Source of the DNA: Streptomyces sp. LS1784
GTDB taxonomy: Bacteria; Actinomycetota; Actinomycetes; Streptomycetales; Streptomycetaceae
Direction: 5' to 3'
Length of the DNA stretch: 35,115 nt
Assembly (NCBI RefSeq): GCF_020103755.1
Contig: NZ_JAHSQD010000027.1
Coordinates: 1-35,115, forward strand
The first letter of the stretch is position 1. Every line of letters starts with the position of its first letter. A program made the position numbers and the translations under genes. Below the pieces are notes generated by a model that was not told the DNA's origin, ran no database searches, and was given only the letters and a program-made list of their open reading frames with translations. Below, piece by piece: positions 7,615 through 35,115 of this stretch.

Positions 7615-8820
7615 ATGGGTGAATCCCCGCACACCGTCACGACCATGCCGGCGGCGCGCCGCCCCGGCTGTCCCTTCGACCCGCCTGCCGAGCTGATCGA
7701 CGCCCGCCGACACGGGCCGATGAGCCGCTACACGTTCCCCGGCGGAAAGCCCGGCTGGTTGGTCACCGGATACGACCTGGTCAGGGCGGTGCTGGCCGAC
7801 ACACGGTTCAGCTCGCGCAAGGACCTGATGCTCCACCCGACCATCGACTACGGCGACTTCCAGACCCCGCCGGCGCCGCCCGGGGAGTTCGTCCTCATGG
7901 ACGAGCCCCAGCACAGCCGCTACCGCAAGCCCCTGACAGGCAAGTTCACCGTACGGCGAATGCGGCTGCTCACCGAGCGCATCGAGCAGGTCACCGCCGC
8001 CCGCCTGGACGCCATGGAGGCGGCCGGGCCTCCGACAGACCTGGTGACCGCATTCGCCAAGCCGATCCCCGCCATCGTGATCTGCGAGCTGCTCGGGGTG
8101 CCGTACGAGGACCGGGGCTCCTTCCAGGAGCAGGTCGACTCGTTCATGAACGGGGAGACGAGCGACGAGGACCTCATGGCGGCCTACGCCTCGACCCAGG
8201 AGTACCTGGCAGAGCTGGTGGCCGCCAAGCGCGCCAACCCCACCGACGACGTGCTCAGCGACCTCACCGACAGCGATCTGACCGACGAAGAGCTGAAGGG
8301 GATCAGCCTGATTCTGCTCGCGGCTGGTCTCGACACCACCGCGAACATGCTGGCCCTTGGAACCTTCGCGCTGCTGCGCAACCCGGACCAACTGGCCGCA
8401 CTGCGCGCCGATCCCGCGCTCGCCGACCGGGCCGTGGAGGAACTGCTGCGGTACCTGAGCGTCGCCAAGACCTTCATGCGGACGGCCCTGGAAGACATCG
8501 AACTCGGCGGCCGGACCGTCAAGGCCGGCGAGCGGGTGATCCTCTCGTTCAACACCGCCAACCGCGATCCCGAGCGCTTCCCCGATCCCCACGCGCTCGA
8601 CCTGCGGAGGCAAGACGGCGGACACCTGGCCTTCGGCCACGGCATCCACCAGTGCCTGGGCCAACAACTGGCCCGCATCGAGATGCGGGTCGCCTTCCCC
8701 GCACTGCTCGACCGCTTCCCCACACTGCGCCTCGCCGTACCGCCCGAGGAGGTCGCCCTGCGCCCGGAGCTCGCGGACATCTACGGGGTGAAGAGCCTCC
8801 CCGTCACCTGGGACGCGTGA
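7615..8820 (+). CDS. Cytochrome P450 monooxygenase
   Basis: The ATG at 7615, preceded by GAGGAA, opens a 401-residue soluble bacterial class I P450. The I-helix oxygen-activation motif is present (LLAAGLDTTANML), as are the ExxR of the K helix (EELLRYL), the heme-ligand loop FGHGIHQCLGQQLAR with the axial cysteine at residue 347, and the C-helix region HSRYRKPLTGKFT. Length and motifs are complete, so it should be active. It probably hydroxylates a natural product or xenobiotic in the cytosol, using electrons from the ferredoxin encoded 3 bp downstream. No reductase gene is nearby, and actinomycetes often share one encoded elsewhere. The sequence resembles CYP105/CYP107-type enzymes, but the subfamily cannot be fixed by eye. 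Confidence 0.93.
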   Translation: MGESPHTVTTMPAARRPGCPFDPPAELIDARRHGPMSRYTFPGGKPGWLVTGYDLVRAVLADTRFSSRKDLMLHPTIDYGDFQTPPAPPGEFVLMDEPQHSRYRKPLTGKFTVRRMRLLTERIEQVTAARLDAMEAAGPPTDLVTAFAKPIPAIVICELLGVPYEDRGSFQEQVDSFMNGETSDEDLMAAYASTQEYLAELVAAKRANPTDDVLSDLTDSDLTDEELKGISLILLAAGLDTTANMLALGTFALLRNPDQLAALRADPALADRAVEELLRYLSVAKTFMRTALEDIELGGRTVKAGERVILSFNTANRDPERFPDPHALDLRRQDGGHLAFGHGIHQCLGQQLARIEMRVAFPALLDRFPTLRLAVPPEEVALRPELADIYGVKSLPVTWDA

Positions 8821-8823
8821 TCG

Positions 8824-9030
8824 ATGAGGATCACCGTGGACGTCGAACGCTGCATCGGCTCCGGAATGTGCGTCCTGACGGCCGGCGAGGTCTTCGACCA
8901 GCGCGACGACGACGGCACGTCGGTCGTGCGGCAACCCGAGCCTCCAGCCGGGGCGTTGGATGCAGTTCGCGAGGCGGTCGCCCTGTGCCCCGCCTCGGCG
9001 ATCAGCCTGTCGGCCGACCAGCGACGTTAG
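8824..9030 (+). CDS. Small [3Fe-4S]-type ferredoxin partner of the P450
   Basis: ATG 8824 starts 3 bp after the P450 stop and encodes 68 residues beginning MRITVDVERCIGSGMCVL. The cluster ligands follow the CX5C...CP arrangement (CIGSGMC, then ALCPASAI) of P450-associated ferredoxins. An alanine or glycine at the position of the fourth cysteine of [4Fe-4S] proteins suggests a 3Fe-4S cluster. Its role is to pass single electrons from a ferredoxin reductase to the P450. The tight spacing implies one mRNA and translational coupling. The stop at 9030 touches the left edge of a MITE-like element, so that element may have inserted at the gene end or supplied the stop. Confidence 0.9.
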   Translation: MRITVDVERCIGSGMCVLTAGEVFDQRDDDGTSVVRQPEPPAGALDAVREAVALCPASAISLSADQRR

Positions 9031-9221
9031 GGCGTGTCTTGCGGATCTTTGCCGGGTGCGCGACGCCGGGGCACGCATCTCGCCGCGTTGTCGTCGGTCG
9101 CCAATGGCCCCCAGCCTTCGGTCGGGAGGTGCCCCCACCGCAGTGGCTCCCTCCTCCGCCTTGCGATGCACGCACCCCAACGCCGCGGCCTGATCCGTCA
9201 AGATCCACAAGATGCGGCACC
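9031..9221. mobile_element. MITE-like palindromic element
   Basis: Both ends carry imperfect inverted repeats: TCTTGCGGATCTTTGCCGG on the left (from about 9037) and TCTTGTGGATCTTGACGG read inward on the minus strand from the right end (about 9215). Further in, GGGGCACGCATC on the left mirrors GGGGTGCGTGCATC on the right. There is no coding capacity. As far as I remember, closely similar 190-bp sequences recur in many Streptomyces genomes, which suits a non-autonomous element mobilised by a transposase encoded elsewhere. Confidence 0.55.
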
Positions 9222-9305
9222 TGTGTCATGAGAGCGGTGTTTGCCCTGGTGGAGGGGCGTGCCTGTGTCACCTGTAGCGGTTGTGTCCAGTTCAGCGTGG
9301 GAGCT

Positions 9306-9479
9306 TCATTCCATGACCGCGTTGGTAGTTGAGGCCACCGTCCAGACTTCCCGAACCCGTCGGCCCTCGATCCGCTCGTGCGGCAGCCGCATGCACACGA
9401 CTCCGGACGCCTTTGCGATGTCGATCACGGCGACCCGAGCCACGGCTCCGTCGTCTTGGTCCTCCCTCGTTTCTTCCAT
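9306..9479 (-). mobile_element. IS110-family transposase, N-terminal fragment
   Basis: The minus-strand ATG at 9479, preceded by GGGAGGG, opens 57 residues. They include VAVIDIAKASGVVCMRLPHE, the RuvC-like start of IS110 transposases with its first catalytic Asp (VIDIAK), and GRRVREVWTVASTTNAVME. A stop follows at 9306, where homologues continue with LADHL. Only the first strand-turn-strand of the DEDD domain is left. It lies head-to-tail downstream of another IS110 fragment (9722-10115) on the same strand. Confidence 0.7.
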
Positions 9480-9721
9480 GGTCGTCGGCCCTCCCTTGCT
9501 GTCGTGCTTCAGGGTGGGGCCGTCCGGGGAGCCTGAGGAAGGCGGAGAAGCTGAACGGCGTGCTCAAAGCGACAGTGCGTGGTCCCTCGGTCAGCCCCCT
9601 CACCAGACTCCTATGCGAGCTCGAAGCCCAAACATCATGCGGCGTCAGCGGGCGGCCCCCACACCGATTTTCACGCGGGCAAGGCGTCATCCGCAGGCGA
9701 ACGGCTGACTCCTATGGGGTG
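9480..9721 (-). repeat. IS110 end-to-end junction with a 10-bp direct repeat
   Basis: Read on the minus strand, the stop of one IS110 transposase (9722) is followed after 5 nt by CATAGGAGTC (9716-9707). After about 90 further bases there is an identical CATAGGAGTC (9615-9606), then a 126-nt leader and the start codon of a second IS110 transposase. This is the layout expected for two neighbouring insertions sharing a core sequence. It places a short right end after the stop and a longer left end before the start. In IS110-group elements the left end can encode the bridge RNA. Confidence 0.45.
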
Positions 9722-10115
9722 TCAAGCGGCGGTGAGCCATTCGCGGTAGGCGTTGGCGAGGTCGTCGTCGCGGCGGATTCCGCGTTCGAGGGTGGAGATG
9801 GTGGCGGGCCAGACGCCGAAGTGGTTGGCGACGGCGGTGAGGGTGATGTTCTTGGCCTGGCGGGCGGGCCGGAGGTCGGCGATCTCGGCGACGGTGACGG
9901 TTGTGGTGAGGCAGCGGAAGATCTCGCGGGCGATGGCGCGTTTGAGGAGGCGGATAATCTCCTTCTTGGTGCGGCCGGCCTCGGTCTGGCGGGCGACGTA
10001 GTCGCGGGTTCGCCGGTCGCTGGACATCCGGCACAGGGCTATACGGTAGAGGGCGGCGTTGGCCGCGCGGTGGCCGCCGCGGGAGAGGCGGTGGCGGTTG
10101 ATCCTGCCGTTGTGA
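9722..10115 (-). mobile_element. IS110-family transposase, C-terminal fragment with HTH tail
   Basis: From about 10115 down to the stop at 9722 the minus strand reads NGRINRHRLSRGGHRAANAA, LYRIALCRMSSDRRTRDYVA, then RTKKEIIRLLKRAIAREIF. This is the conserved second (Tnp20-like) domain of IS110 transposases with its Ser/Arg-rich region. It is followed by an extra helix-turn-helix (NITLTAVANHFGVWPATISTLE) and the tail AYREWLTAA. The N-terminal DEDD domain is missing because the match stops near 10115, where a membrane protein frame begins on the opposite strand. It is therefore an inactive relic. Confidence 0.7.
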
Positions 10116-10651
10116 TCCGACGTGGTGTTCGACTGGGAGTCCGCATAGGAGCTGTGCCTGCCGGGCTGGCCGCCTCGTTATGGCTCGGCGTAGCTGTCGC
10201 GCAGCTCCTCATGAAGCCGCATGCCCTGCCGGGTTTATCCCGACTTGTCATCGCGGTCGGCGGAAGCCTGGGTGTCGGCGTTCTGGTCGGCGCGATCACC
10301 GGTGCGGCACTTGCGCTGTCACCTGAGTGGCTGGCTGGGCGCACCTCGCTGCGAGGACTATTCGCCGGGATTGTCGCCGGGACGACATATCTCGGCGAGA
10401 CCGTCGTCGTGGCAGTGGCCTCCGATGGCGGATACGGGCCGATGCTGCTCACGCTCCTCTCCACTCCCGTGGTTAGCGTCGTGGCAGCGGTGCACAGCGG
10501 TGACATCCTGCAACGCAAACACTCGCAGAAAGTCAGCATGCTGACGCACCACCCGCGTCATCGCCAGCAGGAACCGTCAGGCCGGCGCCTGTTCGGCAGT
10601 GTCGAAGTCCCCGAGGGCCGTCACCATCCCGCCGATCAGCCGACCGAATAA
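10112..10651 (+). CDS. Putative multi-spanning membrane protein, probably 5'-truncated
   Basis: The frame is open well upstream; I place the start at GTG 10112 because sequence before it belongs to an IS110 relic. The product has hydrophobic segments at GLAASLWLGVAVAQLL, LVIAVGGSLGVGVLVGAITG, LFAGIVAGTTYLGETVVVAV and LLTLLSTPVVSVVAAV, so about four membrane spans, and a basic cytoplasmic C-terminus (HSGDILQRKHSQKV). I do not recognise the family. Two TTA leucine codons occur at 10178 and 10235, which in Streptomyces would make translation depend on the bldA tRNA. The last 30 codons may be read-through into unrelated sequence. The native start was probably lost when the IS110 element inserted. 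Confidence 0.5.
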   Translation: MIRRGVRLGVRIGAVPAGLAASLWLGVAVAQLLMKPHALPGLSRLVIAVGGSLGVGVLVGAITGAALALSPEWLAGRTSLRGLFAGIVAGTTYLGETVVVAVASDGGYGPMLLTLLSTPVVSVVAAVHSGDILQRKHSQKVSMLTHHPRHRQQEPSGRRLFGSVEVPEGRHHPADQPTE

Positions 10652-10837: not shown

Positions 10838-11389
10838 TTATGACGGGCGCCCGCCGAACTGCCAGTTGTGCACCTCGATGGTGGCGTATCGGTCCCGGGT
10901 CAGGATGGCTCCTGCCGTATCCGGGTCCGGCGCGCGGAGCAACGCGGCCGTGCCGAGCCAGGTGGTGCCGTCGTCGGACAGCAGCGGCCCGTAGGCGATG
11001 AGGTCGTCTCTGTCAGGCGGCACGGCGAGGTCGGCGGCCTGTCCTGCGCCGAGGCCCAGCACGAGGTATCGGTTGCTGCCGGTCCGGCCGCCGGGGAAGT
11101 CCCACATGGTGCGCCCCAGCGTGTTGCTCCACCGTCGCAGCAGCACGTCCCGGTAGACGCCAGCCTGGTAGCCCGGCTCGTCGAAGGCGAACGCGCGGGC
11201 GGCGGCGGGATCGGGCAGGTCGACGATGTGCACGCTGCCGGTGGGAGCGCCACCGTTGCCGGTGAGGGTCGGGCCCCGGGCGATCATCTCCTTCGCGTAC
11301 CGGTCCATGTAGGACCAGTGCTCTTCCAGTAGTTCGTTGCGAAGTGCTAGGGAGCCGGGCCGGTCGTGGTGGTAGCAGAAGAACTCCAT
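10838..11389 (-). CDS. YCII-domain protein (two tandem YCII-like domains)
   Basis: The minus-strand ATG at 11389 opens 183 residues. The first domain starts MEFFCYHHDRPGSLALRNEL, followed by EEHWSYMDRYAKEMIARGPT and SVHIVDLPDPAAARAFAFDE. This is the ferredoxin-like YCII pattern with its conserved His-Trp and Gly-Pro positions. A second, shorter repeat follows (NRYLVLGLGAG, LIAYGPLLSDDGTTWLGTAA, TRDRYATIEVHNWQFGGRPS). YCII proteins are small enzymes or ligand-binding proteins. Some act as dehydrochlorinase-like enzymes, most are uncharacterised. The frame is intact and monocistronic, convergent with the membrane protein. Confidence 0.8.
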   Translation of the reverse strand: MEFFCYHHDRPGSLALRNELLEEHWSYMDRYAKEMIARGPTLTGNGGAPTGSVHIVDLPDPAAARAFAFDEPGYQAGVYRDVLLRRWSNTLGRTMWDFPGGRTGSNRYLVLGLGAGQAADLAVPPDRDDLIAYGPLLSDDGTTWLGTAALLRAPDPDTAGAILTRDRYATIEVHNWQFGGRPS

Positions 11390-23905: not shown

Positions 23906-25843
23906 ATGCGAATCGACGTGCTCGGTGCTGTGCGGGCCCTCCGCGACGACGGCAGCCCGGTCGACCTGGGCGGACCCCGTCATCGCGAGGTACTCGCCCG
24001 GCTCGTCGCCGCCGAGGGGCGGATGGTCACCACCGACACCCTGGTCGACGACCTGTGGACCGATCCGCCGGTCCGCGCCGTGGGCGCTCTGCGTACGTTC
24101 GTCGCCGCGCTGCGCCGCGCCCTCGAACCCGAACGGCCGCCCCGCGATCCGCCGCGTGTCATCGTCACCGAAGGTCCCGGCTACGCACTGCGCCTGCCGC
24201 GTGATGAGGTGGACGTCCACCGGTTCCAGGACACCCTGGCCCGTGCCCGGCGCCACCCCGACGCGGTGACCGACCTCGGCGCGGCACTCGCGGCCTGGCG
24301 CGGACCCGCGTACGCCGATGTGCCCGGCTCCGCATGGGCGCAGCGCGAGCGGATCCGGCTGGAGGAACTGCGGTTGGAGGGCGTGGAGTTGCGTGCCCGC
24401 CTCCTCCTCGGCTCCGGGGAAGGGGCCGATCTCGTCGCCGGGCTGGGTGCTCATGTCGCCGACCATCCGTGGCGCGAGCCGGCCTGGGGGCTGCTCGCCC
24501 GCGCGCAGTACCATGCGGGCCGCCGGGCCGACGCGCTGGCCACCCTCCGCCGCGCCCGCGCGATGCTCGTCGACCAACTCGGACTGGACCCCGGTGCCGA
24601 CCTGCAACGCCTGGAGATGGAGATCCTCGGCGGGTCCGTGCCGCTCGAAGGCGCACGTACTGCGTGGGCCGGCCCTGGTGTCCGGCTCGGTCCGCGCACC
24701 ACCGTGGATCTGGCCCGCACCCTCGCCCTGGCGGGTGGCGACGCCCTCGTCCACTCGCGGCGCGACCGTCTCGCCGCCGTCCAGGCCGCGGAACGCACAG
24801 GAGACCTCTCCCTGACCGCGCGGATCATCGGTGCCTACGACGTGCCCGCCCTCTGGAGCCGGGCCGACGACCCCGAACAGTCCCGCGCCGTCGTCGCGGC
24901 CGCCGAGCGCACCATCACCGCGCTCGGCCCCGACGGCCCCGCCGACCTCTCCGCCCGCCTGCTGGCCACGATCGCCGTCGAGAGCCGCAGCGCCGATCTG
25001 TCCGGGACCGAGCCGGGGCGCGCGCGGCAGGCGGCGCGGCGGGCCGAGGCGCTGGCACGGGACCTGGCCGATCCCGCCCTGCTCGCCTTCGCCCTCAACG
25101 GGGTGTTCCTGCAGTCCTTCACCCGCCCCGGGCTCGCGGCGGTACGGGACAGGACCGGCGCCGAGATCCTCGACCTGGCCACCCGGCACGCGTTGCCGAA
25201 CTTCGCCGTACTCGGCCGGCTCATCCGCCTGCAGTCCGCCTCCGCCCTCGGCGACCTCGACACCGCAACCTCCCACGCCGAGGCCGCCGAACAGCTCGCC
25301 GCCACCATCGAGGCGCCCCTCGTCCCCGTCCTCACCGGGTGGTTCCGGGCCCGGGTCACAGCCGCCCGCAGCACCGAACCCGGCGGACCGACCGCCGCCA
25401 CGGCCGCGGCGCACTACCGCGCTGCCGAGAACGCCCTCCGGACTGCCGGAATGCCCGGGCTGCACCGCGGCCTCTTCCCGCTCGCCCTGCTGGGGCTGCG
25501 CCTGCTGCACGACCGGCCCGCGCCCACCGACCCGCACCTCGACTGGGGTCCGTACCGGCCTTGGGCACGACCCCTCGTACTGCTCGCCCAGGACCGGACC
25601 GAGGAGGCCCGTGCCGCCCTCGCCACGGTGCCCGAACCACCGCGTGACCACATGCAGGAGGCCATGTGGTGCCTGACCGTCCGCGCCGCCGTACGCCTCG
25701 GCGCGCCCGGAATCGCCGCACGCGCCCAGGCTGCCCTGCGCGATGCCTGTGCCGAACACGCCGGCGCCACCAGCGGAATGGTGACCCTGGGCCCGGTGGC
25801 ACGGTATCTGGCAGAGGCGGAGGCATGCGCCGGAGCGGGGTAA
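23906..25843 (+). CDS. AfsR/SARP-type transcriptional regulator with BTAD and long C-terminal repeat domain
   Basis: ATG 23906 opens 645 residues. Residues 1-95 form an OmpR-like winged-helix DNA-binding domain (MRIDVLGAVRALRDDGSPVD, RHREVLARLVAAEGRMVTTD, LVDDLWTDPPVRAVGALRTF, GPGYALRLP). Residues 96-245 are the bacterial activator domain BTAD (VDVHRFQDTLARAR, ALAAWRGPAYADVP, LRRARAMLVDQLGLDPGADL). The rest is alpha-helical, TPR-like (RAVVAAAERTITALG, RARQAARRAEALARDLADPA), with no NB-ARC ATP-binding loop, so it is a medium-size SARP-like protein. Relatives activate secondary-metabolite genes. It is divergent from the hydrolase gene. The tandem duplication starts inside it at 24710 (codon 269), so the full-length gene exists only here and its C-terminal part recurs in a chimera at 29907. 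Confidence 0.9.
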   Translation: MRIDVLGAVRALRDDGSPVDLGGPRHREVLARLVAAEGRMVTTDTLVDDLWTDPPVRAVGALRTFVAALRRALEPERPPRDPPRVIVTEGPGYALRLPRDEVDVHRFQDTLARARRHPDAVTDLGAALAAWRGPAYADVPGSAWAQRERIRLEELRLEGVELRARLLLGSGEGADLVAGLGAHVADHPWREPAWGLLARAQYHAGRRADALATLRRARAMLVDQLGLDPGADLQRLEMEILGGSVPLEGARTAWAGPGVRLGPRTTVDLARTLALAGGDALVHSRRDRLAAVQAAERTGDLSLTARIIGAYDVPALWSRADDPEQSRAVVAAAERTITALGPDGPADLSARLLATIAVESRSADLSGTEPGRARQAARRAEALARDLADPALLAFALNGVFLQSFTRPGLAAVRDRTGAEILDLATRHALPNFAVLGRLIRLQSASALGDLDTATSHAEAAEQLAATIEAPLVPVLTGWFRARVTAARSTEPGGPTAATAAAHYRAAENALRTAGMPGLHRGLFPLALLGLRLLHDRPAPTDPHLDWGPYRPWARPLVLLAQDRTEEARAALATVPEPPRDHMQEAMWCLTVRAAVRLGAPGIAARAQAALRDACAEHAGATSGMVTLGPVARYLAEAEACAGAG

Positions 25844-25867
25844 GCGACCCCGGAACGGAGACGACCA

Positions 25868-26017
25868 GTGATCCCCATGCCGCCCCACCGTTGGAAGGAC
25901 CCCGGTGTCCTCGGCGCCACCGGACCCGGAGAACACGGACCCTTCGGCCGCTGGCCCAAACCCGAAGCAGGCGAGACTGCACCCGAGCCCAGCACGCCCG
26001 AGCCCCGGCAGGAGTAG
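25868..26017 (+). CDS. Small ORF downstream of the regulator, 49 residues
   Basis: GTG 25868, with GGAACGGAG about 8 nt upstream, opens 49 residues: VIPMPPHRWKDPGVLGATGP, then EHGPFGRWPKPEAGETAPEP. An in-frame ATG at 25877 is an alternative start. The peptide is rich in Pro, Gly and Trp with an acidic Pro/Glu tail and no cysteines. It lies 24 bp after the regulator stop, so it is probably cotranscribed. I do not recognise a family. The well-placed ribosome binding site and non-random composition favour a real gene, but 49 codons in high-GC DNA is weak evidence. Confidence 0.4.
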   Translation: MIPMPPHRWKDPGVLGATGPGEHGPFGRWPKPEAGETAPEPSTPEPRQE

Positions 26018-26200
26018 GGGAATCACAGCAAGATCAATCTCACCGGGATTTCCTGTACCTCAACTATTCACACCCGTAATCACGCAGTGCGGCGTGAGTT
26101 CGGTGCCACCTGGCACACTCCCCAGCCCCCTCATCAACGGAGCATCCCCTGCCCAACCACATACCCTTCCTCACCCTTTCGAGTGAAGTGCAGAGAAGCA
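26018..26200. other. Right end region of the recombinase element
   Basis: There is no gene in these 183 bases, which are noticeably lower in GC than the surroundings. The segment ends GAGTGAAGTGCAGAGAAGCA, after which maturase codons begin. Read inward from the right it starts TGCTTCTCTGCAC, which shares TCTGCAC with the left end (GCACAGTTATCTGCACC). I take 26200 as the right boundary because it restores the maturase frame. Confidence 0.5.
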
Positions 26201-27476
26201 GTGGACGCTCTACCGCTGTGCCAAGCAAGAACCCGAGCGCCGGTTCCATGCCCTGTATGGCCACGTCCTCCGCATGGACGTCTTGTGGCGGGCATGGTCC
26301 AGCGTGAGCACGAACCGGGGCGCCCCCGGGGTGGACGGCGTGAGCGTCGACCAGGTGGCGGCCTCGGGGGTGGATGAGTTCCTCCAGGACCTGTCGGATC
26401 GACTGCGGACGCATACGTATCGTCCGTCGGTGCTGCGGCGGGTCCAGATCCCGAAACCGGGGCGGCCGGGGGAGTTGCGGCCGCTGTCGATCCCCACTGC
26501 GGCCGACCGGGTGGTGATGACGGCCGCGAAACTGGTCCTCGAACCGGTCTTCGAGGCCCGGTTCACCGAGGCGAGCTACGGTTTCCGGCCCAAGCGGTCC
26601 GCGATCGACGCGTGTGAGGCTGTGCGCGTCGCGGCGAACCAGGGACGGGAGTGGGTGTTCGAGGCCGATATCCGGGACTGCTTCGGGACGATCGGACATG
26701 ATGCCCTTGTCGCTCAGGTGGAGCGGCGCGTGGCGGACCGGTCGATGCTGAAACTGATCCGGGCATGGCTGCGGATGGGAGTACTGGAGGGCGGGGTGAC
26801 CTCCCCGACTGGGGCGGGAACCCCGCAGGGCTCACCGATCTCCCCGCTGCTGGCCAACATCGCCTTGCACGTCCTCGACGAGGCGTGGCAGGACGAGGGA
26901 CGCCGGCTGGGGGTGCTGGTGCGCCACTGCGATGACTTCGTGGTCCTGTCGCCGACCAGACAGCGCGCCGAACAGGCGCGCGAGCTGGCCGCGCGGGTGC
27001 TGGGCAGACTCGGGATGCGGCTGCATCCGGAGAAGTCCGGCATCGTCTGCCTCACGCGGGGCGGGCAGGGTTTCGAGTTCCTCGGATTCCACCACCGGAA
27101 GGTGGAGTCGTGGAGATGGCGGGGCAGGTTCTACCTGCAACGCTGGCCCCCGCCACGGGCGTTGGGGGTTCTGCGGGACAAGATTCGCGCGGCCACCTCA
27201 AGGTCCCGGAGCGAGCGGCCGGTGGCCGCTGTGGTCGCCGATCTCAACCCGGTCCTGCGGGGCTGGGCAGCGTACTTCCGAAACGGCAACAGCGGGCGGA
27301 AGTTCAATGAGGTCGACGGCTATGTCCACGAGCGGCTGGCGATCTTCGCCAGCCGGAAACACGGCCTGCGGGGCCGGAACTGGACCAGCCGTTTCACCTA
27401 CGGGTGGATCAGTCGGCTCGGGGTCTACCGCCTGACCGGGAACGTGCGCTGGGCGACGGCGCATGCCAGCTGGTGA
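26201..27476 (+). pseudogene. Group II intron maturase/reverse transcriptase, 3' part (copy 1)
   Basis: The frame continues from the codons at 18687-18772. On its own it could start only at ATG 26274 (400 residues), after an in-frame stop at 26184. Visible domains: the N-terminal RT0/RT1 region (WTLYRCAKQEPERRFHALYG, NRGAPGVDGVS), fingers and palm with RPLSIPTAADRVV, YGFRPKRSAIDAC, ADIRDCFGTI (first Asp) and GTPQGSPISPLLANI, the active-site HCDDFVVL (DD at 220-221 of the short form), then the maturase-specific X domain (LNPVLRGWAAYFRNGNSGRK, HERLAIFASRKHGLRGRNWT). No HNH endonuclease domain is seen. The usual Tyr/Phe of YxDD is His here. In the intact intron it would help splicing and reverse-transcribe the RNA into DNA target sites. 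The split makes that unlikely from this copy. Confidence 0.85.
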
Positions 27477-27487
27477 ACGATGTCGGA

Positions 27488-27576
27488 AAGCCGTGTGCGG
27501 GAGAACCGCATGCACGGTTCGAAGCGGCGGGGACTGGAAACGGAGCATCAGCCACCGCGCCAGTCCCCGACCCTAC
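27488..27576 (+). ncRNA. Group II intron domains V and VI, 3' splice site (copy 1)
   Basis: Domain V is 27488-27521: AGCCGTGTGCGG, loop GAGA, then CCGCATGCACGGTTC, with the catalytic AGC triad at 27489-27491. Domain VI has a perfect 9-bp stem, GGGGACTGG (27529-27537) with CCAGTCCCC (27560-27568). A27570 is a good branch-point candidate, 7 nt before the 3' end CCCTAC at 27576. Both elements follow the maturase stop by about 10 and 50 nt, the standard order. Confidence 0.85.
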
Positions 27577-27696
27577 TCAGTGGCTCAGCGCTCCTGACCC
27601 AGCTCGGATTCGGTCAACGCGCCGAGTTTTACCGGGACGTGACACGATGCCTGCTTGGGCCGGTCGTTCCGGCGTCCGCCGGTAGGGTCGCCGATT

Positions 27697-28752
27697 ATGA
27701 GGATTCTGGTCACCGGCGGTGCCGGGTTCATTGGGTCGGCGGTCGTACTGGCCCTAGCGACGGCGGGCCACGAGGTCCGCGTTCTGGACGCACTGCTGCC
27801 CGCCGTCCACCCCTCCGGAGTGATGCCCAGCCTGCCGGACGACGTGGAGCTGCGGCACGGCGACGTGCGGGATGCGGTGGTGGTTGAGCAGGCACTGGCC
27901 GGTGTGGACGCGGTCTGCCACCAGGCGGCGATGGTGGGCCTGGGGCTGGACCTCGACGACGCGCCCGCCTATGCCGGCTGCAACGACCTCGGCACAGCGG
28001 TCCTGCTCTCCGCGATGGCGCGTTCGCACGTGCGGGACCTGGTGCTCGCCGGGTCCATGGTGGTCTACGGGGAGGGCCGGTACCGGTGTCCGGTGCACGG
28101 GGACGTCTCGCCCGGTCCGCGGCATCCGGACAACCTGGACGCCGGCCTGTTCGAGCCGCCGTGCCCGCGGTGCGGCGCTGAACTGAGCCCCGGGCTGGTG
28201 GCAGAAGACGCCCCGGTCGACCCGCGCAACGTGTACGCGGCCACCAAGCTGGCCCAGGAGCACCTGGCCTCCGCCTGGGCCCGCGCCTGCGGGGGACGCG
28301 TACTGACGCTCCGTTACCACAACGTCTACGGGCCGGGCATGCCACGCGACACGCCGTACGCTGGGGTCGCTTCCCTGTTCCGCTCGGCCCTGGCCCGAGG
28401 CAAGGCACCGCGGGTGTTCGAGGACGGCGGTCAGCGCCGGGACTTCGTCCACGTCCAGGACGTGGCCGATGCCAACGTCGCCGCGCTCGCTGCCGTTGGC
28501 GGCCGGCCCCCAGGCAGCGCCCGGGCGTACAACGTGGGCAGCGGCGAGGTCCGGACGATCGGCGAGATGGCCTCGGCGCTCGCCGCTGCCCACGGGGGGC
28601 CGATGCCGGTAGTGACGGGCGAGTACCGGCTCGGCGACGTCCGGCACATCACCGCGGACTCCTCGCGGCTGCTTGCGGAACTCGCTTGGCGGGCCCGGGT
28701 GGCCTTCACGGACGGCATGAGGGAGTTCGCGGCGGCACCGCAACGTGCCTGA
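27697..28752 (+). CDS. NAD-dependent epimerase/dehydratase with cysteine-pair insertion (copy 1)
   Basis: ATG 27697 opens 351 residues of an extended short-chain dehydrogenase. The NAD loop is MRILVTGGAGFIGSAVV, the first acidic residue after strand 2 is Asp in VRVLDALLP, and the catalytic pair is YAATK in NVYAATKLAQEHLASAW. Substrate-side motifs LRYHNVYGPGMP and RRDFVHVQDVADANVAAL are those of nucleotide-sugar epimerases. Unusually for the fold, residues about 128-170 contain CPVHG and CPRCG, a possible zinc-binding knuckle. The gene lies 120 bp after the intron 3' end. It is convergent with a decayed two-component pair, with only 2 bp between stops, and near a family 2 glycosyltransferase. 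Together these suggest a sugar-modification locus that predates the insertions. Confidence 0.9.
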   Translation: MRILVTGGAGFIGSAVVLALATAGHEVRVLDALLPAVHPSGVMPSLPDDVELRHGDVRDAVVVEQALAGVDAVCHQAAMVGLGLDLDDAPAYAGCNDLGTAVLLSAMARSHVRDLVLAGSMVVYGEGRYRCPVHGDVSPGPRHPDNLDAGLFEPPCPRCGAELSPGLVAEDAPVDPRNVYAATKLAQEHLASAWARACGGRVLTLRYHNVYGPGMPRDTPYAGVASLFRSALARGKAPRVFEDGGQRRDFVHVQDVADANVAALAAVGGRPPGSARAYNVGSGEVRTIGEMASALAAAHGGPMPVVTGEYRLGDVRHITADSSRLLAELAWRARVAFTDGMREFAAAPQRA

Positions 28753-28754
28753 CG

Positions 28755-29316
28755 TCAGCTTCGGGCAGCGGGAAGGACGATCTCGAAGCAGCAGCCCCCG
28801 GCGGTGTTGTGCACCCGGGCCCGACCGGCATGGGCCTCGACGATGCCGCGGACGATGGAGAGCCCAAGTCCGGCACCGCCCCCGCCCGGTTCCTGGGGGC
28901 TTCCGGGGTCGGCCGGGCGAGGAGTGCGGGCGGTGCTGCCACGCCACCCCGTCTCGAACGCCCGAGGCAGGTCCTGTTCCGGGATGCCGCCGCAGCCGTC
29001 GGTGACCGAGAGCACCAGCTCGTCCCCCCTTGGCGGTGAGCATGACGACCGGCAGGTCGGCACCGCCCTCGGCGGGCCGCAGCCTGCGCAGGATCTCCAG
29101 GCCGTCGATCCCGGGGAGCATGAGGTCCGGAACCAGCAGGTCCGGGCGGTGGGCGGGGGCCAGGGCGAACCCCTGCGGGCCGTCGGCGGCCCGGTCGACG
29201 CGGTGACCCGCCCGAGTGAGGTAGCCGGCCACGACCTCGGCCACGGTCGGGTCGTCACCGATCACCAGGACGCGGCAGGACGACGGTGATCCCCCTGTGG
29301 TGGGGCGGTCGTTCAC
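28755..29316 (-). pseudogene. Two-component response regulator / histidine kinase pair collapsed by deletion (copy 1)
   Basis: GTG 29316 opens a receiver domain: CRVLVIGDDPTVAEVVAGYL with the acidic pair, DLLVPDLMLPGIDGLEILRR with the phospho-acceptor Asp, and VVMLTAKG with the conserved Thr and Lys. At a C/G-run near 29024-29030 the coding signal shifts frame directly into the ATPase end of a histidine kinase: DELVLSVTDGCGGIPEQDLP (G1 box), GGGAGLGLSIVRGIVEAHAG (G2 box), ending CCFEIVLPAARS at 28755. The DNA-binding half of the regulator and the sensor and dimerisation parts of the kinase are gone, so one deletion removed the middle of an adjacent regulator-kinase gene pair. The relic is convergent with the epimerase gene. 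Confidence 0.8.
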
Positions 29317-29486
29317 CTTGCCGAGGATACGACCCCCCGGCCACGGCGGGGTCGCCCACCGGGACCGGCGTCCGCGTTCCGTGAGATCCCCGAGATCCCC
29401 CGAACGGGCCCCGCCGGACAGACGTGGCACTTCCACAAGGGCGCGGTTCGGTCCCGACGGGACCGCCCGCGGTTAGCGTGACCGGC

Positions 29487-31040
29487 GTGACTTCTCCCCT
29501 CCCTCCCCCACCGGTCGCCGATGTGGTCCTGCCCTGCCTGGACGAATCCGGGGCCCTGCCGTGGGTGCTCGGACGCATCCCTCCCGGCTGGCGGGCGATC
29601 GTCGTGGACAACGGCTCCCGGGACGGCTCCGCCGAGCTCGCCCGCTCCCTCGGCGCGACCGTGGTCGAGGAACCGAGGCGCGGCTTTGGCGCCGCCTGCC
29701 ACACCGGGCTGCGCGCCGCCACCGCCGACCTGGTCTGCTTCCTCGACTGCGACGGCTCGCTCGATCCCGCCCAACTCCCCCGGGTCGTCGCACCGGTGCT
29801 GGACGGTGCGGCCGACCTGGTGCTCGGCCGCCGCCGGCCGGCCACCGCCGGTGCCTGGCCGGTGCACGCCCGCCTCGCCAACGCCGTCCTCGCCCGACGG
29901 CTGCGGCTGGCCCGCACCCTCGCCCTGGCGGGTGGCGACGCCCTCGTCCACTCGCGGCGCGACCGTCTCGCCGCCGTCCAGGCCGCGGAACGCACAGGAG
30001 ACCTCTCCCTGACCGCGCGGATCATCGGTGCCTACGACGTGCCCGCCCTCTGGAGCCGGGCCGACGACCCCGAACAGTCCCGCGCCGTCGTCGCGGCCGC
30101 CGAGCGCACCATCACCGCGCTCGGCCCCGACGGCCCCGCCGACCTCTCCGCCCGCCTGCTGGCCACGATCGCCGTCGAGAGCCGCAGCGCCGATCTGTCC
30201 GGGACCGAGCCGGGGCGCGCGCGGCAGGCGGCGCGGCGGGCCGAGGCGCTGGCACGGGACCTGGCCGATCCCGCCCTGCTCGCCTTCGCCCTCAACGGGG
30301 TGTTCCTGCAGTCCTTCACCCGCCCCGGGCTCGCGGCGGTACGGGACAGGACCGGCGCCGAGATCCTCGACCTGGCCACCCGGCACGCGTTGCCGAACTT
30401 CGCCGTACTCGGCCGGCTCATCCGCCTGCAGTCCGCCTCCGCCCTCGGCGACCTCGACACCGCAACCTCCCACGCCGAGGCCGCCGAACAGCTCGCCGCC
30501 ACCATCGAGGCGCCCCTCGTCCCCGTCCTCACCGGGTGGTTCCGGGCCCGGGTCACAGCCGCCCGCAGCACCGAACCCGGCGGACCGACCGCCGCCACGG
30601 CCGCGGCGCACTACCGCGCTGCCGAGAACGCCCTCCGGACTGCCGGAATGCCCGGGCTGCACCGCGGCCTCTTCCCGCTCGCCCTGCTGGGGCTGCGCCT
30701 GCTGCACGACCGGCCCGCGCCCACCGACCCGCACCTCGACTGGGGTCCGTACCGGCCTTGGGCACGACCCCTCGTACTGCTCGCCCAGGACCGGACCGAG
30801 GAGGCCCGTGCCGCCCTCGCCACGGTGCCCGAACCACCGCGTGACCACATGCAGGAGGCCATGTGGTGCCTGACCGTCCGCGCCGCCGTACGCCTCGGCG
30901 CGCCCGGAATCGCCGCACGCGCCCAGGCTGCCCTGCGCGATGCCTGTGCCGAACACGCCGGCGCCACCAGCGGAATGGTGACCCTGGGCCCGGTGGCACG
31001 GTATCTGGCAGAGGCGGAGGCATGCGCCGGAGCGGGGTAA
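29487..31040 (+). CDS. Chimeric ORF: glycosyltransferase N-terminus fused to SARP regulator C-terminus
   Basis: GTG 29487 (alternative GTG 29478) opens a family 2 glycosyltransferase: VADVVLPCLDESGALPWVLG, AIVVDNGSRDGSAELA, then FLDCDGSLDP with the metal-binding DxD-like site. After 140 residues (LARRLR, 29906) the frame passes without a break into LARTLALAGGDALVHSRRDR, which is residue 269 onward of the regulator at 23906, and continues to that gene's stop, giving 517 residues in all. The regulator part lacks the winged helix and BTAD, so the chimera cannot act as a SARP. The glycosyltransferase part lacks its acceptor region. It exists only because of the tandem duplication junction. If real, it would be expressed from the glycosyltransferase promoter. 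Confidence 0.85.
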   Translation: MTSPLPPPPVADVVLPCLDESGALPWVLGRIPPGWRAIVVDNGSRDGSAELARSLGATVVEEPRRGFGAACHTGLRAATADLVCFLDCDGSLDPAQLPRVVAPVLDGAADLVLGRRRPATAGAWPVHARLANAVLARRLRLARTLALAGGDALVHSRRDRLAAVQAAERTGDLSLTARIIGAYDVPALWSRADDPEQSRAVVAAAERTITALGPDGPADLSARLLATIAVESRSADLSGTEPGRARQAARRAEALARDLADPALLAFALNGVFLQSFTRPGLAAVRDRTGAEILDLATRHALPNFAVLGRLIRLQSASALGDLDTATSHAEAAEQLAATIEAPLVPVLTGWFRARVTAARSTEPGGPTAATAAAHYRAAENALRTAGMPGLHRGLFPLALLGLRLLHDRPAPTDPHLDWGPYRPWARPLVLLAQDRTEEARAALATVPEPPRDHMQEAMWCLTVRAAVRLGAPGIAARAQAALRDACAEHAGATSGMVTLGPVARYLAEAEACAGAG

Positions 31041-31064
31041 GCGACCCCGGAACGGAGACGACCA

Positions 31065-31214
31065 GTGATCCCCATGCCGCCCCACCGTTGGAAGGACCCC
31101 GGTGTCCTCGGCGCCACCGGACCCGGAGAACACGGACCCTTCGGCCGCTGGCCCAAACCCGAAGCAGGCGAGACTGCACCCGAGCCCAGCACGCCCGAGC
31201 CCCGGCAGGAGTAG
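31065..31214 (+). CDS. Small ORF, 49 residues (copy 2)
   Basis: Identical to the ORF at 25868, with the same ribosome binding site. Here it follows the chimeric glycosyltransferase-regulator gene and so may be expressed from a different promoter. Confidence 0.4.
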   Translation: MIPMPPHRWKDPGVLGATGPGEHGPFGRWPKPEAGETAPEPSTPEPRQE

Positions 31215-31397
31215 GGGAATCACAGCAAGATCAATCTCACCGGGATTTCCTGTACCTCAACTATTCACACCCGTAATCACGCAGTGCGGCGTGAGTTCGG
31301 TGCCACCTGGCACACTCCCCAGCCCCCTCATCAACGGAGCATCCCCTGCCCAACCACATACCCTTCCTCACCCTTTCGAGTGAAGTGCAGAGAAGCA

Positions 31398-32673
31398 GTG
31401 GACGCTCTACCGCTGTGCCAAGCAAGAACCCGAGCGCCGGTTCCATGCCCTGTATGGCCACGTCCTCCGCATGGACGTCTTGTGGCGGGCATGGTCCAGC
31501 GTGAGCACGAACCGGGGCGCCCCCGGGGTGGACGGCGTGAGCGTCGACCAGGTGGCGGCCTCGGGGGTGGATGAGTTCCTCCAGGACCTGTCGGATCGAC
31601 TGCGGACGCATACGTATCGTCCGTCGGTGCTGCGGCGGGTCCAGATCCCGAAACCGGGGCGGCCGGGGGAGTTGCGGCCGCTGTCGATCCCCACTGCGGC
31701 CGACCGGGTGGTGATGACGGCCGCGAAACTGGTCCTCGAACCGGTCTTCGAGGCCCGGTTCACCGAGGCGAGCTACGGTTTCCGGCCCAAGCGGTCCGCG
31801 ATCGACGCGTGTGAGGCTGTGCGCGTCGCGGCGAACCAGGGACGGGAGTGGGTGTTCGAGGCCGATATCCGGGACTGCTTCGGGACGATCGGACATGATG
31901 CCCTTGTCGCTCAGGTGGAGCGGCGCGTGGCGGACCGGTCGATGCTGAAACTGATCCGGGCATGGCTGCGGATGGGAGTACTGGAGGGCGGGGTGACCTC
32001 CCCGACTGGGGCGGGAACCCCGCAGGGCTCACCGATCTCCCCGCTGCTGGCCAACATCGCCTTGCACGTCCTCGACGAGGCGTGGCAGGACGAGGGACGC
32101 CGGCTGGGGGTGCTGGTGCGCCACTGCGATGACTTCGTGGTCCTGTCGCCGACCAGACAGCGCGCCGAACAGGCGCGCGAGCTGGCCGCGCGGGTGCTGG
32201 GCAGACTCGGGATGCGGCTGCATCCGGAGAAGTCCGGCATCGTCTGCCTCACGCGGGGCGGGCAGGGTTTCGAGTTCCTCGGATTCCACCACCGGAAGGT
32301 GGAGTCGTGGAGATGGCGGGGCAGGTTCTACCTGCAACGCTGGCCCCCGCCACGGGCGTTGGGGGTTCTGCGGGACAAGATTCGCGCGGCCACCTCAAGG
32401 TCCCGGAGCGAGCGGCCGGTGGCCGCTGTGGTCGCCGATCTCAACCCGGTCCTGCGGGGCTGGGCAGCGTACTTCCGAAACGGCAACAGCGGGCGGAAGT
32501 TCAATGAGGTCGACGGCTATGTCCACGAGCGGCTGGCGATCTTCGCCAGCCGGAAACACGGCCTGCGGGGCCGGAACTGGACCAGCCGTTTCACCTACGG
32601 GTGGATCAGTCGGCTCGGGGTCTACCGCCTGACCGGGAACGTGCGCTGGGCGACGGCGCATGCCAGCTGGTGA
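31398..32673 (+). pseudogene. Group II intron maturase/reverse transcriptase, 3' part (copy 2)
   Basis: Identical to 26201-27476. This copy has the element's right end before it (to 31397) but no 5' intron half of its own between it and the duplication junction. It therefore cannot be rejoined by excision of the inserted element. Translation could begin only at ATG 31471, giving the RT palm with HCDD and the X domain. Confidence 0.85.
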
Positions 32674-32684
32674 ACGATGTCGGA

Positions 32685-32773
32685 AAGCCGTGTGCGGGAG
32701 AACCGCATGCACGGTTCGAAGCGGCGGGGACTGGAAACGGAGCATCAGCCACCGCGCCAGTCCCCGACCCTAC
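32685..32773 (+). ncRNA. Group II intron domains V and VI (copy 2)
   Basis: Identical to 27488-27576: domain V from 32685 with its AGC triad, domain VI stem at 32726-32734 and 32757-32765, candidate branch point A32767 and 3' end at 32773. Confidence 0.85.
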
Positions 32774-32893
32774 TCAGTGGCTCAGCGCTCCTGACCCAGC
32801 TCGGATTCGGTCAACGCGCCGAGTTTTACCGGGACGTGACACGATGCCTGCTTGGGCCGGTCGTTCCGGCGTCCGCCGGTAGGGTCGCCGATT

Positions 32894-33949
32894 ATGAGGA
32901 TTCTGGTCACCGGCGGTGCCGGGTTCATTGGGTCGGCGGTCGTACTGGCCCTAGCGACGGCGGGCCACGAGGTCCGCGTTCTGGACGCACTGCTGCCCGC
33001 CGTCCACCCCTCCGGAGTGATGCCCAGCCTGCCGGACGACGTGGAGCTGCGGCACGGCGACGTGCGGGATGCGGTGGTGGTTGAGCAGGCACTGGCCGGT
33101 GTGGACGCGGTCTGCCACCAGGCGGCGATGGTGGGCCTGGGGCTGGACCTCGACGACGCGCCCGCCTATGCCGGCTGCAACGACCTCGGCACAGCGGTCC
33201 TGCTCTCCGCGATGGCGCGTTCGCACGTGCGGGACCTGGTGCTCGCCGGGTCCATGGTGGTCTACGGGGAGGGCCGGTACCGGTGTCCGGTGCACGGGGA
33301 CGTCTCGCCCGGTCCGCGGCATCCGGACAACCTGGACGCCGGCCTGTTCGAGCCGCCGTGCCCGCGGTGCGGCGCTGAACTGAGCCCCGGGCTGGTGGCA
33401 GAAGACGCCCCGGTCGACCCGCGCAACGTGTACGCGGCCACCAAGCTGGCCCAGGAGCACCTGGCCTCCGCCTGGGCCCGCGCCTGCGGGGGACGCGTAC
33501 TGACGCTCCGTTACCACAACGTCTACGGGCCGGGCATGCCACGCGACACGCCGTACGCTGGGGTCGCTTCCCTGTTCCGCTCGGCCCTGGCCCGAGGCAA
33601 GGCACCGCGGGTGTTCGAGGACGGCGGTCAGCGCCGGGACTTCGTCCACGTCCAGGACGTGGCCGATGCCAACGTCGCCGCGCTCGCTGCCGTTGGCGGC
33701 CGGCCCCCAGGCAGCGCCCGGGCGTACAACGTGGGCAGCGGCGAGGTCCGGACGATCGGCGAGATGGCCTCGGCGCTCGCCGCTGCCCACGGGGGGCCGA
33801 TGCCGGTAGTGACGGGCGAGTACCGGCTCGGCGACGTCCGGCACATCACCGCGGACTCCTCGCGGCTGCTTGCGGAACTCGCTTGGCGGGCCCGGGTGGC
33901 CTTCACGGACGGCATGAGGGAGTTCGCGGCGGCACCGCAACGTGCCTGA
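32894..33949 (+). CDS. NAD-dependent epimerase/dehydratase (copy 2)
   Basis: A complete second copy of the 351-residue gene at 27697, with the same start, NAD loop, YAATK pair and cysteine-pair insertion. If the duplication is real, the cell carries at least two identical intact epimerase genes, and a dosage effect is the most direct functional consequence of the duplication. Confidence 0.9.
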   Translation: MRILVTGGAGFIGSAVVLALATAGHEVRVLDALLPAVHPSGVMPSLPDDVELRHGDVRDAVVVEQALAGVDAVCHQAAMVGLGLDLDDAPAYAGCNDLGTAVLLSAMARSHVRDLVLAGSMVVYGEGRYRCPVHGDVSPGPRHPDNLDAGLFEPPCPRCGAELSPGLVAEDAPVDPRNVYAATKLAQEHLASAWARACGGRVLTLRYHNVYGPGMPRDTPYAGVASLFRSALARGKAPRVFEDGGQRRDFVHVQDVADANVAALAAVGGRPPGSARAYNVGSGEVRTIGEMASALAAAHGGPMPVVTGEYRLGDVRHITADSSRLLAELAWRARVAFTDGMREFAAAPQRA

Positions 33950-33951
33950 CG

Positions 33952-34513
33952 TCAGCTTCGGGCAGCGGGAAGGACGATCTCGAAGCAGCAGCCCCCGGCG
34001 GTGTTGTGCACCCGGGCCCGACCGGCATGGGCCTCGACGATGCCGCGGACGATGGAGAGCCCAAGTCCGGCACCGCCCCCGCCCGGTTCCTGGGGGCTTC
34101 CGGGGTCGGCCGGGCGAGGAGTGCGGGCGGTGCTGCCACGCCACCCCGTCTCGAACGCCCGAGGCAGGTCCTGTTCCGGGATGCCGCCGCAGCCGTCGGT
34201 GACCGAGAGCACCAGCTCGTCCCCCCTTGGCGGTGAGCATGACGACCGGCAGGTCGGCACCGCCCTCGGCGGGCCGCAGCCTGCGCAGGATCTCCAGGCC
34301 GTCGATCCCGGGGAGCATGAGGTCCGGAACCAGCAGGTCCGGGCGGTGGGCGGGGGCCAGGGCGAACCCCTGCGGGCCGTCGGCGGCCCGGTCGACGCGG
34401 TGACCCGCCCGAGTGAGGTAGCCGGCCACGACCTCGGCCACGGTCGGGTCGTCACCGATCACCAGGACGCGGCAGGACGACGGTGATCCCCCTGTGGTGG
34501 GGCGGTCGTTCAC
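33952..34513 (-). pseudogene. Collapsed response regulator / histidine kinase relic (copy 2)
   Basis: Identical to 28755-29316, including the frame change in the C/G-run. The deletion therefore happened before the duplication. Confidence 0.8.
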
Positions 34514-34683
34514 CTTGCCGAGGATACGACCCCCCGGCCACGGCGGGGTCGCCCACCGGGACCGGCGTCCGCGTTCCGTGAGATCCCCGAGATCCCCCGA
34601 ACGGGCCCCGCCGGACAGACGTGGCACTTCCACAAGGGCGCGGTTCGGTCCCGACGGGACCGCCCGCGGTTAGCGTGACCGGC

Positions 34684-35115
34684 GTGACTTCTCCCCTCCC
34701 TCCCCCACCGGTCGCCGATGTGGTCCTGCCCTGCCTGGACGAATCCGGGGCCCTGCCGTGGGTGCTCGGACGCATCCCTCCCGGCTGGCGGGCGATCGTC
34801 GTGGACAACGGCTCCCGGGACGGCTCCGCCGAGCTCGCCCGCTCCCTCGGCGCGACCGTGGTCGAGGAACCGAGGCGCGGCTTTGGCGCCGCCTGCCACA
34901 CCGGGCTGCGCGCCGCCACCGCCGACCTGGTCTGCTTCCTCGACTGCGACGGCTCGCTCGATCCCGCCCAACTCCCCCGGGTCGTCGCACCGGTGCTGGA
35001 CGGTGCGGCCGACCTGGTGCTCGGCCGCCGCCGGCCGGCCACCGCCGGTGCCTGGCCGGTGCACGCCCGCCTCGCCAACGCCGTCCTCGCCCGACGGCTG
35101 CGGGCCCGCACCGGC
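34684..35115 (+). CDS. Family 2 glycosyltransferase, native copy, cut by the window end
   Basis: GTG 34684 opens the same 140 residues as at 29487 (VADVVLPCLDESGALPWVLG, VVDNGSRDG, FLDCDGS). After RRLR the frame reads ARTG, so it leaves the duplicated unit and continues as the natural protein beyond the window. It is the GT-A fold type that transfers sugar from a nucleotide donor. Intact relatives have roughly 230 or more residues. Its proximity to the epimerase gene suggests a shared role in making a glycosylated product or cell-surface sugar. Confidence 0.8.
   Translation, partial: MTSPLPPPPVADVVLPCLDESGALPWVLGRIPPGWRAIVVDNGSRDGSAELARSLGATVVEEPRRGFGAACHTGLRAATADLVCFLDCDGSLDPAQLPRVVAPVLDGAADLVLGRRRPATAGAWPVHARLANAVLARRLRARTG

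Follow-up and report, generated by a model that had tools for sequence, protein, structure and literature searches.

An IS110-family element very probably inserted under bridge-RNA guidance into the right end of another IS110 relic in Streptomyces

On the minus strand of the window, by which we mean the whole 35,115-nucleotide stretch of Streptomyces sp. LS1784 DNA analyzed here, the end of one IS110 transposase is followed by the ten-letter word CATAGGAGTC, which recurs ahead of the start of a second IS110 transposase. What is this word, and why does it stand there twice? A sequence-only reading had taken the decamer for a possible IS110 core at the ends of the elements and the DNA behind its second copy for a candidate bridge-RNA gene. 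We arrive at another answer: instead of marking two element ends, the word occurs once as a guide and once as the target of that guide, and the second relic (B) very probably belongs to an IS110-family element whose bridge RNA directed its insertion into the right end of the first (A).

Two relics and the junction between them

The repeat is real and lies where the sequence-only reading had placed it. Both occurrences in the window are on the minus strand (Table 1), the word is absent from 100 dinucleotide shuffles of the window, and the genome holds five exact copies, the window pair included. A 91-nt spacer (9616-9706) separates the two decamers, and a 126-nt leader (9480-9605) runs from the second to the ATG of the downstream frame at 9477-9479. 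That two IS110 relics lie head to tail is likewise borne out, by a Pfam match for A and by DNA homology for both. What the upstream frame retains of its IS110 transposase is the 3' part (Transposase_20, 21.9 bits, cut-off 21.3), and relic A, which has lost its 5' part, is 90.5% identical in DNA over 9704-10112 to a fuller relative (the A element in L191). Relic B, truncated near 9310 and devoid of its right end, is 83% identical to L087 over 9310-9716; its 57-aa frame gave no Pfam match up to E 0.1. Intact relatives of A (L218, L219), of B (L078) and of C, a cousin with 68% protein identity to B (L082), encode DEDD_Tnp_IS110 and Transposase_20 domains that pass both Pfam cut-offs, which places these relatives by sequence in the IS110 family; the window itself holds A and B as fragments only. 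The transposases of intact relatives measure 441 and 445 aa, and the B relatives L078, L090, and L095 are about 1,640 bp long. Because the best alignment between intact A and B representatives covers only 116 aa at 30% identity, A and B are not copies of one element.

Table 1. Features of the A-B locus (window coordinates)
Feature	Position	Strand	Remarks
Relic A, 3' part of an IS110-family element	9709-10112	-	transposase C-terminus, stop 9722-9724; right end to 9709
A right terminus (left donor) ATAGGAG	9709-9715	-	doubles as left half of the B target; ends in the AG core, 9709-9710
First decamer	9707-9716	-	A terminus and first two B bases; a junction, not a core
Relic B, second IS110: left end (complete) and first codons	9310-9708	-	from L087 homology and left junctions of relatives
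Predicted bridge RNA of B	9516-9690	-	RNAalifold consensus, 11 sequences
5' hairpin of predicted RNA	about 9664-9690	-	consensus fold
Closing helix of predicted RNA	9649-9660 with 9516-9527	-	consensus fold
Target-binding loop, predicted	9603-9646	-	helices 4 and 5 of consensus fold
Right target guide ATGATG	9633-9638	-	position fixed by covariation in relatives; B right flank lost in window
Second decamer	9606-9615	-	inside B left end; holds left target guide
Left target guide CATAGGAG	9608-9615	-	8/8 match to left flank 9709-9716
Donor-binding loop, predicted	9545-9588	-	helices 6 and 7 of consensus fold
Left donor guide CCGTTCAG	9551-9558	-	tracks right terminus of B copies, CCG[AT]TCAG
B transposase frame start, truncated, 57 aa	9304-9479	-	homology to IS110 start

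DNA relatives of the upstream and of the downstream side come from different genomes, and their matches break at the decamer: those in G046, G035, and G020 cover query positions 1-92 or 1-97, whereas that in G051 begins at query position 85 (window 9716). Two elements therefore meet there. On the A side, eight A elements terminate with ATAGGAG, the next bases being CATC or CTTC. The same ATAGGAG recurs as the element's own donor guide in seven of the eight; in L217 the donor guide falls outside the stretch fetched, hence seven. A variant element, A' (L220), carries ATAAGAG at both terminus and donor guide.

On the B side, we examined 18 copies of the lineage. In 15 the guide is of the ATAGGAG type and the left junction can be read; the others are L031, with a rearranged left end, and two copies with the guide CACAAGAG. 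B left ends begin TC(A/G)(G/A)CCGTTC and the DNA preceding them varies, yet ATAGGAG stands directly before the left end in 14 of the 15, the exception (L032/L093) reading ATAGGAGGAG. Right ends run to ...TTTTCCG[AT]TCAG and diverge beyond. We took AG, not CT, as the core because these are the bases common to both B junctions. The sequence-only assignments do not survive this comparison: the core is a dinucleotide within the first decamer (9709-9710) rather than the decamer, and the decamer is no element end, since the B left end begins at 9708, eight bases into the first copy. Checked against the ends of intact relatives, the second decamer coincides with none and the first only in part.

Two empty sites agree with these boundaries: the flanks of L116 align to L173 with 69 of 73 positions identical and those of L150 to L167 with 97 of 115, both without a gap, and there is no target duplication beyond the shared short core at either. 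A third comparison, of L093 with L190, points to a site of this kind in an A' left end, but there L093 has three additional bases. Near the ends of the elements compared lies a short inverted repeat, GAAAA/TTTTC, extended by one to three of three further matching bases; its left copy in B is about 35 nt inside the left end.

Some neighboring features deserve mention. Adjoining the relics, a cytochrome P450 followed by a small [4Fe-4S] ferredoxin is encoded on the plus strand (7615-9030). A YCII-domain protein is encoded on the minus strand (10838-11389). Farther on, 24705-29910 and 29902-35107 form a 5.2-kb head-to-tail duplication with 99.87% identity, each copy holding a group II intron reverse transcriptase/maturase frame (26274-27476, 31471-32673); ending within 8 bases of the window end, the duplication may be real or an effect of assembly.

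Guide words and a predicted bridge RNA in the left end

About 95 nt inside each of 74 aligned left ends, between conserved stems, lies a word resembling that element's own left flank. These 74, several of which are copies of one element at different sites, were kept from 120 matches after duplicates and matches with E > 1e-8 were dropped. The word is CATAGGAG in B and TAGGTCAG in C, where the flank is mostly CAGGTCAG; other guide words are CGAAACAG, CGTGAAAG, TTCATTAG, TGAAATAG, TCGTCTAG, CTGAGTAG, GGGGTCAG, and ACATTGAG. With one copy per guide word, small shifts allowed alike in data and permutations, and the six of the 74 with a replaced left end left aside (L007, L031, L035, L039, L086, L186), 25 guide 8-mers matched their left flanks at a mean of 6.72 of 8 positions against 4.09 when permuted (0 of 100,000 permutations as high). 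When the comparison was confined to the six bases immediately to the left of the core, 18 guide types matched at 4.94 of 6 against 1.93 (again 0 of 100,000). An unbiased scan of aligned columns peaked at the left guide (z 10.4), the other high peak (z 10.0) being the flank itself. In the scan and the 18-type test, the flanks of L046 and L129 were shifted by hand by one or two bases, the aligned boundary being off, and in the 18-type test also that of L162, a flank without AG. Cousins whose guides differ also differ in their flanks: in Streptomyces sp. NBC_01549, C copies occupy 15 sites, all with the flank AGGTCAG directly before the element. As for B, the internal word is present in the left end of all 15 copies, exactly ATAGGAG in 13, and guide and flank are both exactly ATAGGAG in 12; the guides of L036 and L085 have changed and are one and two bases of eight off their flanks, and L032 has extra bases.

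The dinucleotide that follows the left target guide is often the one with which the left end begins (TC, CC, TA), as in the window at 9606-9607 and 9707-9708, and because of this frequent identity the repeat is ten bases long, not eight. In the column scan this match reached z 4.1, the types being related to one another; it may reflect pairing after strand exchange.

The left guide sits within a conserved fold, and it is here that the proposal of a bridge-RNA gene holds in part: such a gene is predicted in the left end of the second relic, but the conserved fold spans about 9516-9690 and not 9480-9615, with the second decamer midway in it. The consensus fold has 93.2% of its cells paired and 14 pairs with double changes, compared with 4.4 in shuffled alignments (0 of 500 as high) and 2 to 5 in slid versions. 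Single-sequence folding was uninformative, the window RNA doing no better than shuffles (z +1.65) and L078 giving z -1.47, and an Rfam search of window 9200-10200 gave no match up to E 1. Covariation and fold together predict a two-loop bridge RNA in the long left end of B.

In the second loop, 57 nt beyond the left target guide, CCGTTCAG resembles the B right terminus and is the candidate left donor guide. An earlier comparison was circular, as termini had been located with the donor guide itself; the repeat found termini solely by the pattern TTTTC-N5-AG, which yields exactly one terminus in 53 of the 74 elements and none in 21 (locus cut, element truncated, or motif changed). Taken one copy per guide word, 13 donor guide words matched their termini at 5.69 of 6 positions against 3.31 permuted (0 of 100,000), and the column scan gave z 8.3. 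Among 12 B copies, four (L088, L090, L091, L144) have a one-base mismatch between donor guide and terminus; outside those 12, guide and terminus of L145 also differ by one base, and L145 lacks a base besides. For a right donor guide of B, neither inspection by eye nor the column scan gave a convincing candidate.

The right target guide was harder to place. Our first column scan placed the segment most complementary to the right flank 23 nt 5' of the left guide. Its z of 3.1 did not rise above background, since the right-flank identity control peaked at 3.3 in another place; the signal was weak because the distance from guide to stem varies. Read from the stem, as the six bases that precede the pair facing the core (9631-9632 in the window), the guide matched the complement of the right flank at 3.39 of 6 positions against 1.72 permuted in 18 types (0 of 100,000), with identity and unreversed controls at or below chance. 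This test, in which the place was picked after inspection of the sequences and guide words were read by hand, used 18 of 27 elements, omitting the close relatives L034, L166, L163, L169, L130, L134, L132, L127, and L151. Because the place had been chosen in that way, we repeated the test with an automatic anchor: among 380 windows the right-guide window scored best (z 5.9, next 3.6), as it did when another B copy was used (5.7, next 3.9). L094 and L147 share the left guide CACAAGAG and differ in their right guides, TTGTAG and TTCATG, each of which matches its own right flank at 5 of 6 positions and the other's at 2 of 6. The match is poor in some types (L150, 0/6; L054 and L107, 1/6) and also in L078 (1/6). 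In the consensus fold, the two target guides lie on opposite sides of one internal loop, the right one, complementary to the top strand, 5' and the left one 3'.

From these elements, namely the junctions, the core, the guide-flank match across relatives, and the conserved fold, all legible in the aligned DNA, we picture the insertion as follows. The B left end would be transcribed, on the strand given in Table 1, into a bridge RNA that would bind an active B recombinase, and the two would join a circular B to the target ATAGG-AG-C. In the circle, the right terminus CCGnTCAG, whose AG would be the core, would be followed by the left end TC.... Insertion after AG would part the ATAGGAG of A from the bases formerly next to it; alternatively, in relatives, B would split the donor-guide site of the A bridge-RNA gene. 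Either event should stop A from moving, a harm to A that we infer. The window locus is the fossil of one B-into-A event.

Where B copies sit, and other explanations

By homology, 11 of the 15 B copies lie within A-type IS110s, at the right end or at the donor-guide site of the A RNA gene: five adjoin the 3' end of an A transposase (the window, L097, L079, L145, L146), and six are preceded by an A left end that reaches as far as the donor guide (L087, L088, L090, L091, L093, L157). Two more (L095, L085) are placed in A by the right-end motif only, and two are not assigned to A: L078, on a plasmid of Streptomyces sp. NBC_01340, is in a reverse-transcriptase gene (RVT_1), and L144 is unclassified. 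In this tally, L096/L035, split by another insertion, was not counted, and L088/L089, which share genome and junction, counted as one. The share in A ends was not built in by the search, because the B queries held at most 16 bases of A; L087 was also found with a query spanning both sides of the decamer. To the right of L093 come the remainder of an A' donor loop and what, on inspection by eye, is an A' transposase start, so that B splits the A bridge-RNA gene there. In five genomes, the word ATAGGAG has only 32 to 93 occurrences each, and in G009 four of the 32 sites are those of its two A copies. Left-end-only A fragments (L102, L211, L212, L213), considered as small deletion derivatives of A, offered no clear case of a B target.

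In L087, L088, L090, and L091, an A left end lies to the left and sequence like that beyond an A right end to the right, the A transposase being missing. These might, as a guess, be hybrids from recombination between two B copies in one A; the idea fits three of the four donor mismatches (L088, L090, L091) but not L144, and L087 matches without mismatch. The two copies with the guide CACAAGAG, L094 (near 2884) and L147 (near 1496), sit in winged-helix transposase-like genes (HTH_23, HTH_29).

Could the decamer instead mark the ends of a single element type twice, as the right end-core-left end junction of a tandem or circle-derived array? IS110 elements as a class form circles and abutted ends, and G618 contains two C-type copies, oriented alike and separated by 1,675 bp, where the flank of L174, TTCCGGTCAG up to the element boundary, reads as such a junction should and suggests a natural one. 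For the window we consider this very improbable: A and B are different elements at 30% identity over 116 aa, the B right terminus is CCG[AT]TCAG and not ATAGGAG, which already contradicts it, and the internal word is found in 15 of 15 B left ends with other DNA, no second element start, after it. That ATAGGAG contains AGGAG invites the further thought that it is a ribosome-binding-site-like or promoter motif for transposase expression and the repeat incidental. This is scarcely credible, as the same aligned position reads AGGTCAG, GAAACAG, CATTAG, GTCTAG, etc., in other elements, each resembling its own left flank; a translation signal would not track the insertion site, and the covariation contradicts it.

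An explanation without guide-directed targeting of A ends, in which insertions elsewhere were lost by selection and mainly those at harmless mobile-element sites remain, has in its favor that homology or motif puts 13 of the 15 copies within A-type elements and that L078 lies in a gene for reverse transcriptase. We regard it as unlikely, given that ATAGGAG is at the left junction in 14 of 15 and that both copies carrying a different left guide are found at the sequence of that guide. Selective loss of insertions at other places may strengthen the bias toward A ends; it does not make the guide match. Guided insertion of B into A remains our reading of the locus.

Guide order compared with known systems

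In IS621, the left target guide (A50-U58) precedes the right one (G77-G80), as described in the text of PMC11208160 and PMC11208158. B is like IS621 in that the recombinase of its relatives combines DEDD and Transposase_20 domains, that its predicted RNA is in a long left end with a first loop for the target and a second for the donor, that left guides read as the top strand (and pair with the bottom) and the right target guide complements the top strand, and that target and donor have a two-base core in common. It departs from IS621 in its core (AG rather than CT), in a target loop with the right guide before the left, in the location of the donor guide, which is on the 3' side of the donor loop, and in the length of the transposase, 441 aa where the IS621 structure entry has 328. 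The donor loop of A-type elements, by comparison, has the IS621 order, ATAGGAGC first and then a segment complementary to the left end of the same element; this holds for 8 of 8 elements, which represent four alleles (GACACTGA/TCAGTGTC, GACATTGA/TCAATGTC, GACAGTGA/TCACTGTC, GACTGTGA/TCACAGTC).

Like B, ISEc21, an IS110-family element with a seekRNA, has an upstream non-coding region, an RNA that matches both strands of the linear target, and a target within another insertion sequence; its top-strand match lies 3' of the bottom-strand match, opposite to tested IS1111 elements, according to the text of PMC11187229. In B, the top-strand match lies 5', and the target, instead of an IS3-family transposase gene, is an IS110 end or RNA gene. 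With the IS1111 group B shares the order of the target guides (top-strand match first) and the use of ends of other mobile elements as targets; the short inverted repeat GAAAA/TTTTC may or may not correspond to the sub-terminal repeats of 7-17 bp of that group; IS4321 and IS5075 are said to target Tn21 ends, and the IS4321 transposase shows weak identity (24% over 119 aa). The RNA gene of B, unlike that of IS1111, lies upstream of the transposase, in the left end, and not downstream, and the transposases of intact relatives, of 441 and 445 aa, exceed the 330-350 aa of that group (PMC11187229). The same paper places IS110 itself in a long-transposase branch of 395-455 aa. B-type RNAs would therefore combine the IS1111 guide order with the IS110 RNA position, an order of right before left that is not described for left-end bridge RNAs in the passages of PMC11208160, PMC11208158, PMC11187229, and PMC12045711 compared here.

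We regard B as an IS110-family variant whose novelty, judged from sequence, lies in the uncoupling of guide order from RNA position and in the programming of one IS110 against another; element-on-element targeting itself has precedents, as with ISEc21 in IS3-family genes (PMC11187229). The B target guides match the A right terminus and the bases that follow, ATAGGAG-CATCAA, and the right flanks of nine free A elements match the six bases CATCAA at 4 to 6 of 6 positions. We hold it an even call whether these long-transposase actinomycete IS110s represent a third bridge-RNA architecture, with a left-end RNA, the IS1111 guide order, and an AG core, of which one branch became a dedicated parasite of a second IS110 lineage, disabling the mobility of its host by landing at the right terminus or the donor-guide site. 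Bridge RNAs are under development for programmable DNA insertion, and the lineage supplies about 18 natural guide types with known flanks, and many copies. If the reading is true, guide order and the position of the RNA gene would be separable, which bears on the origin of the IS110 and IS1111 groups, and the locus would offer an example from nature in which an RNA-guided element is programmed against a second such element.
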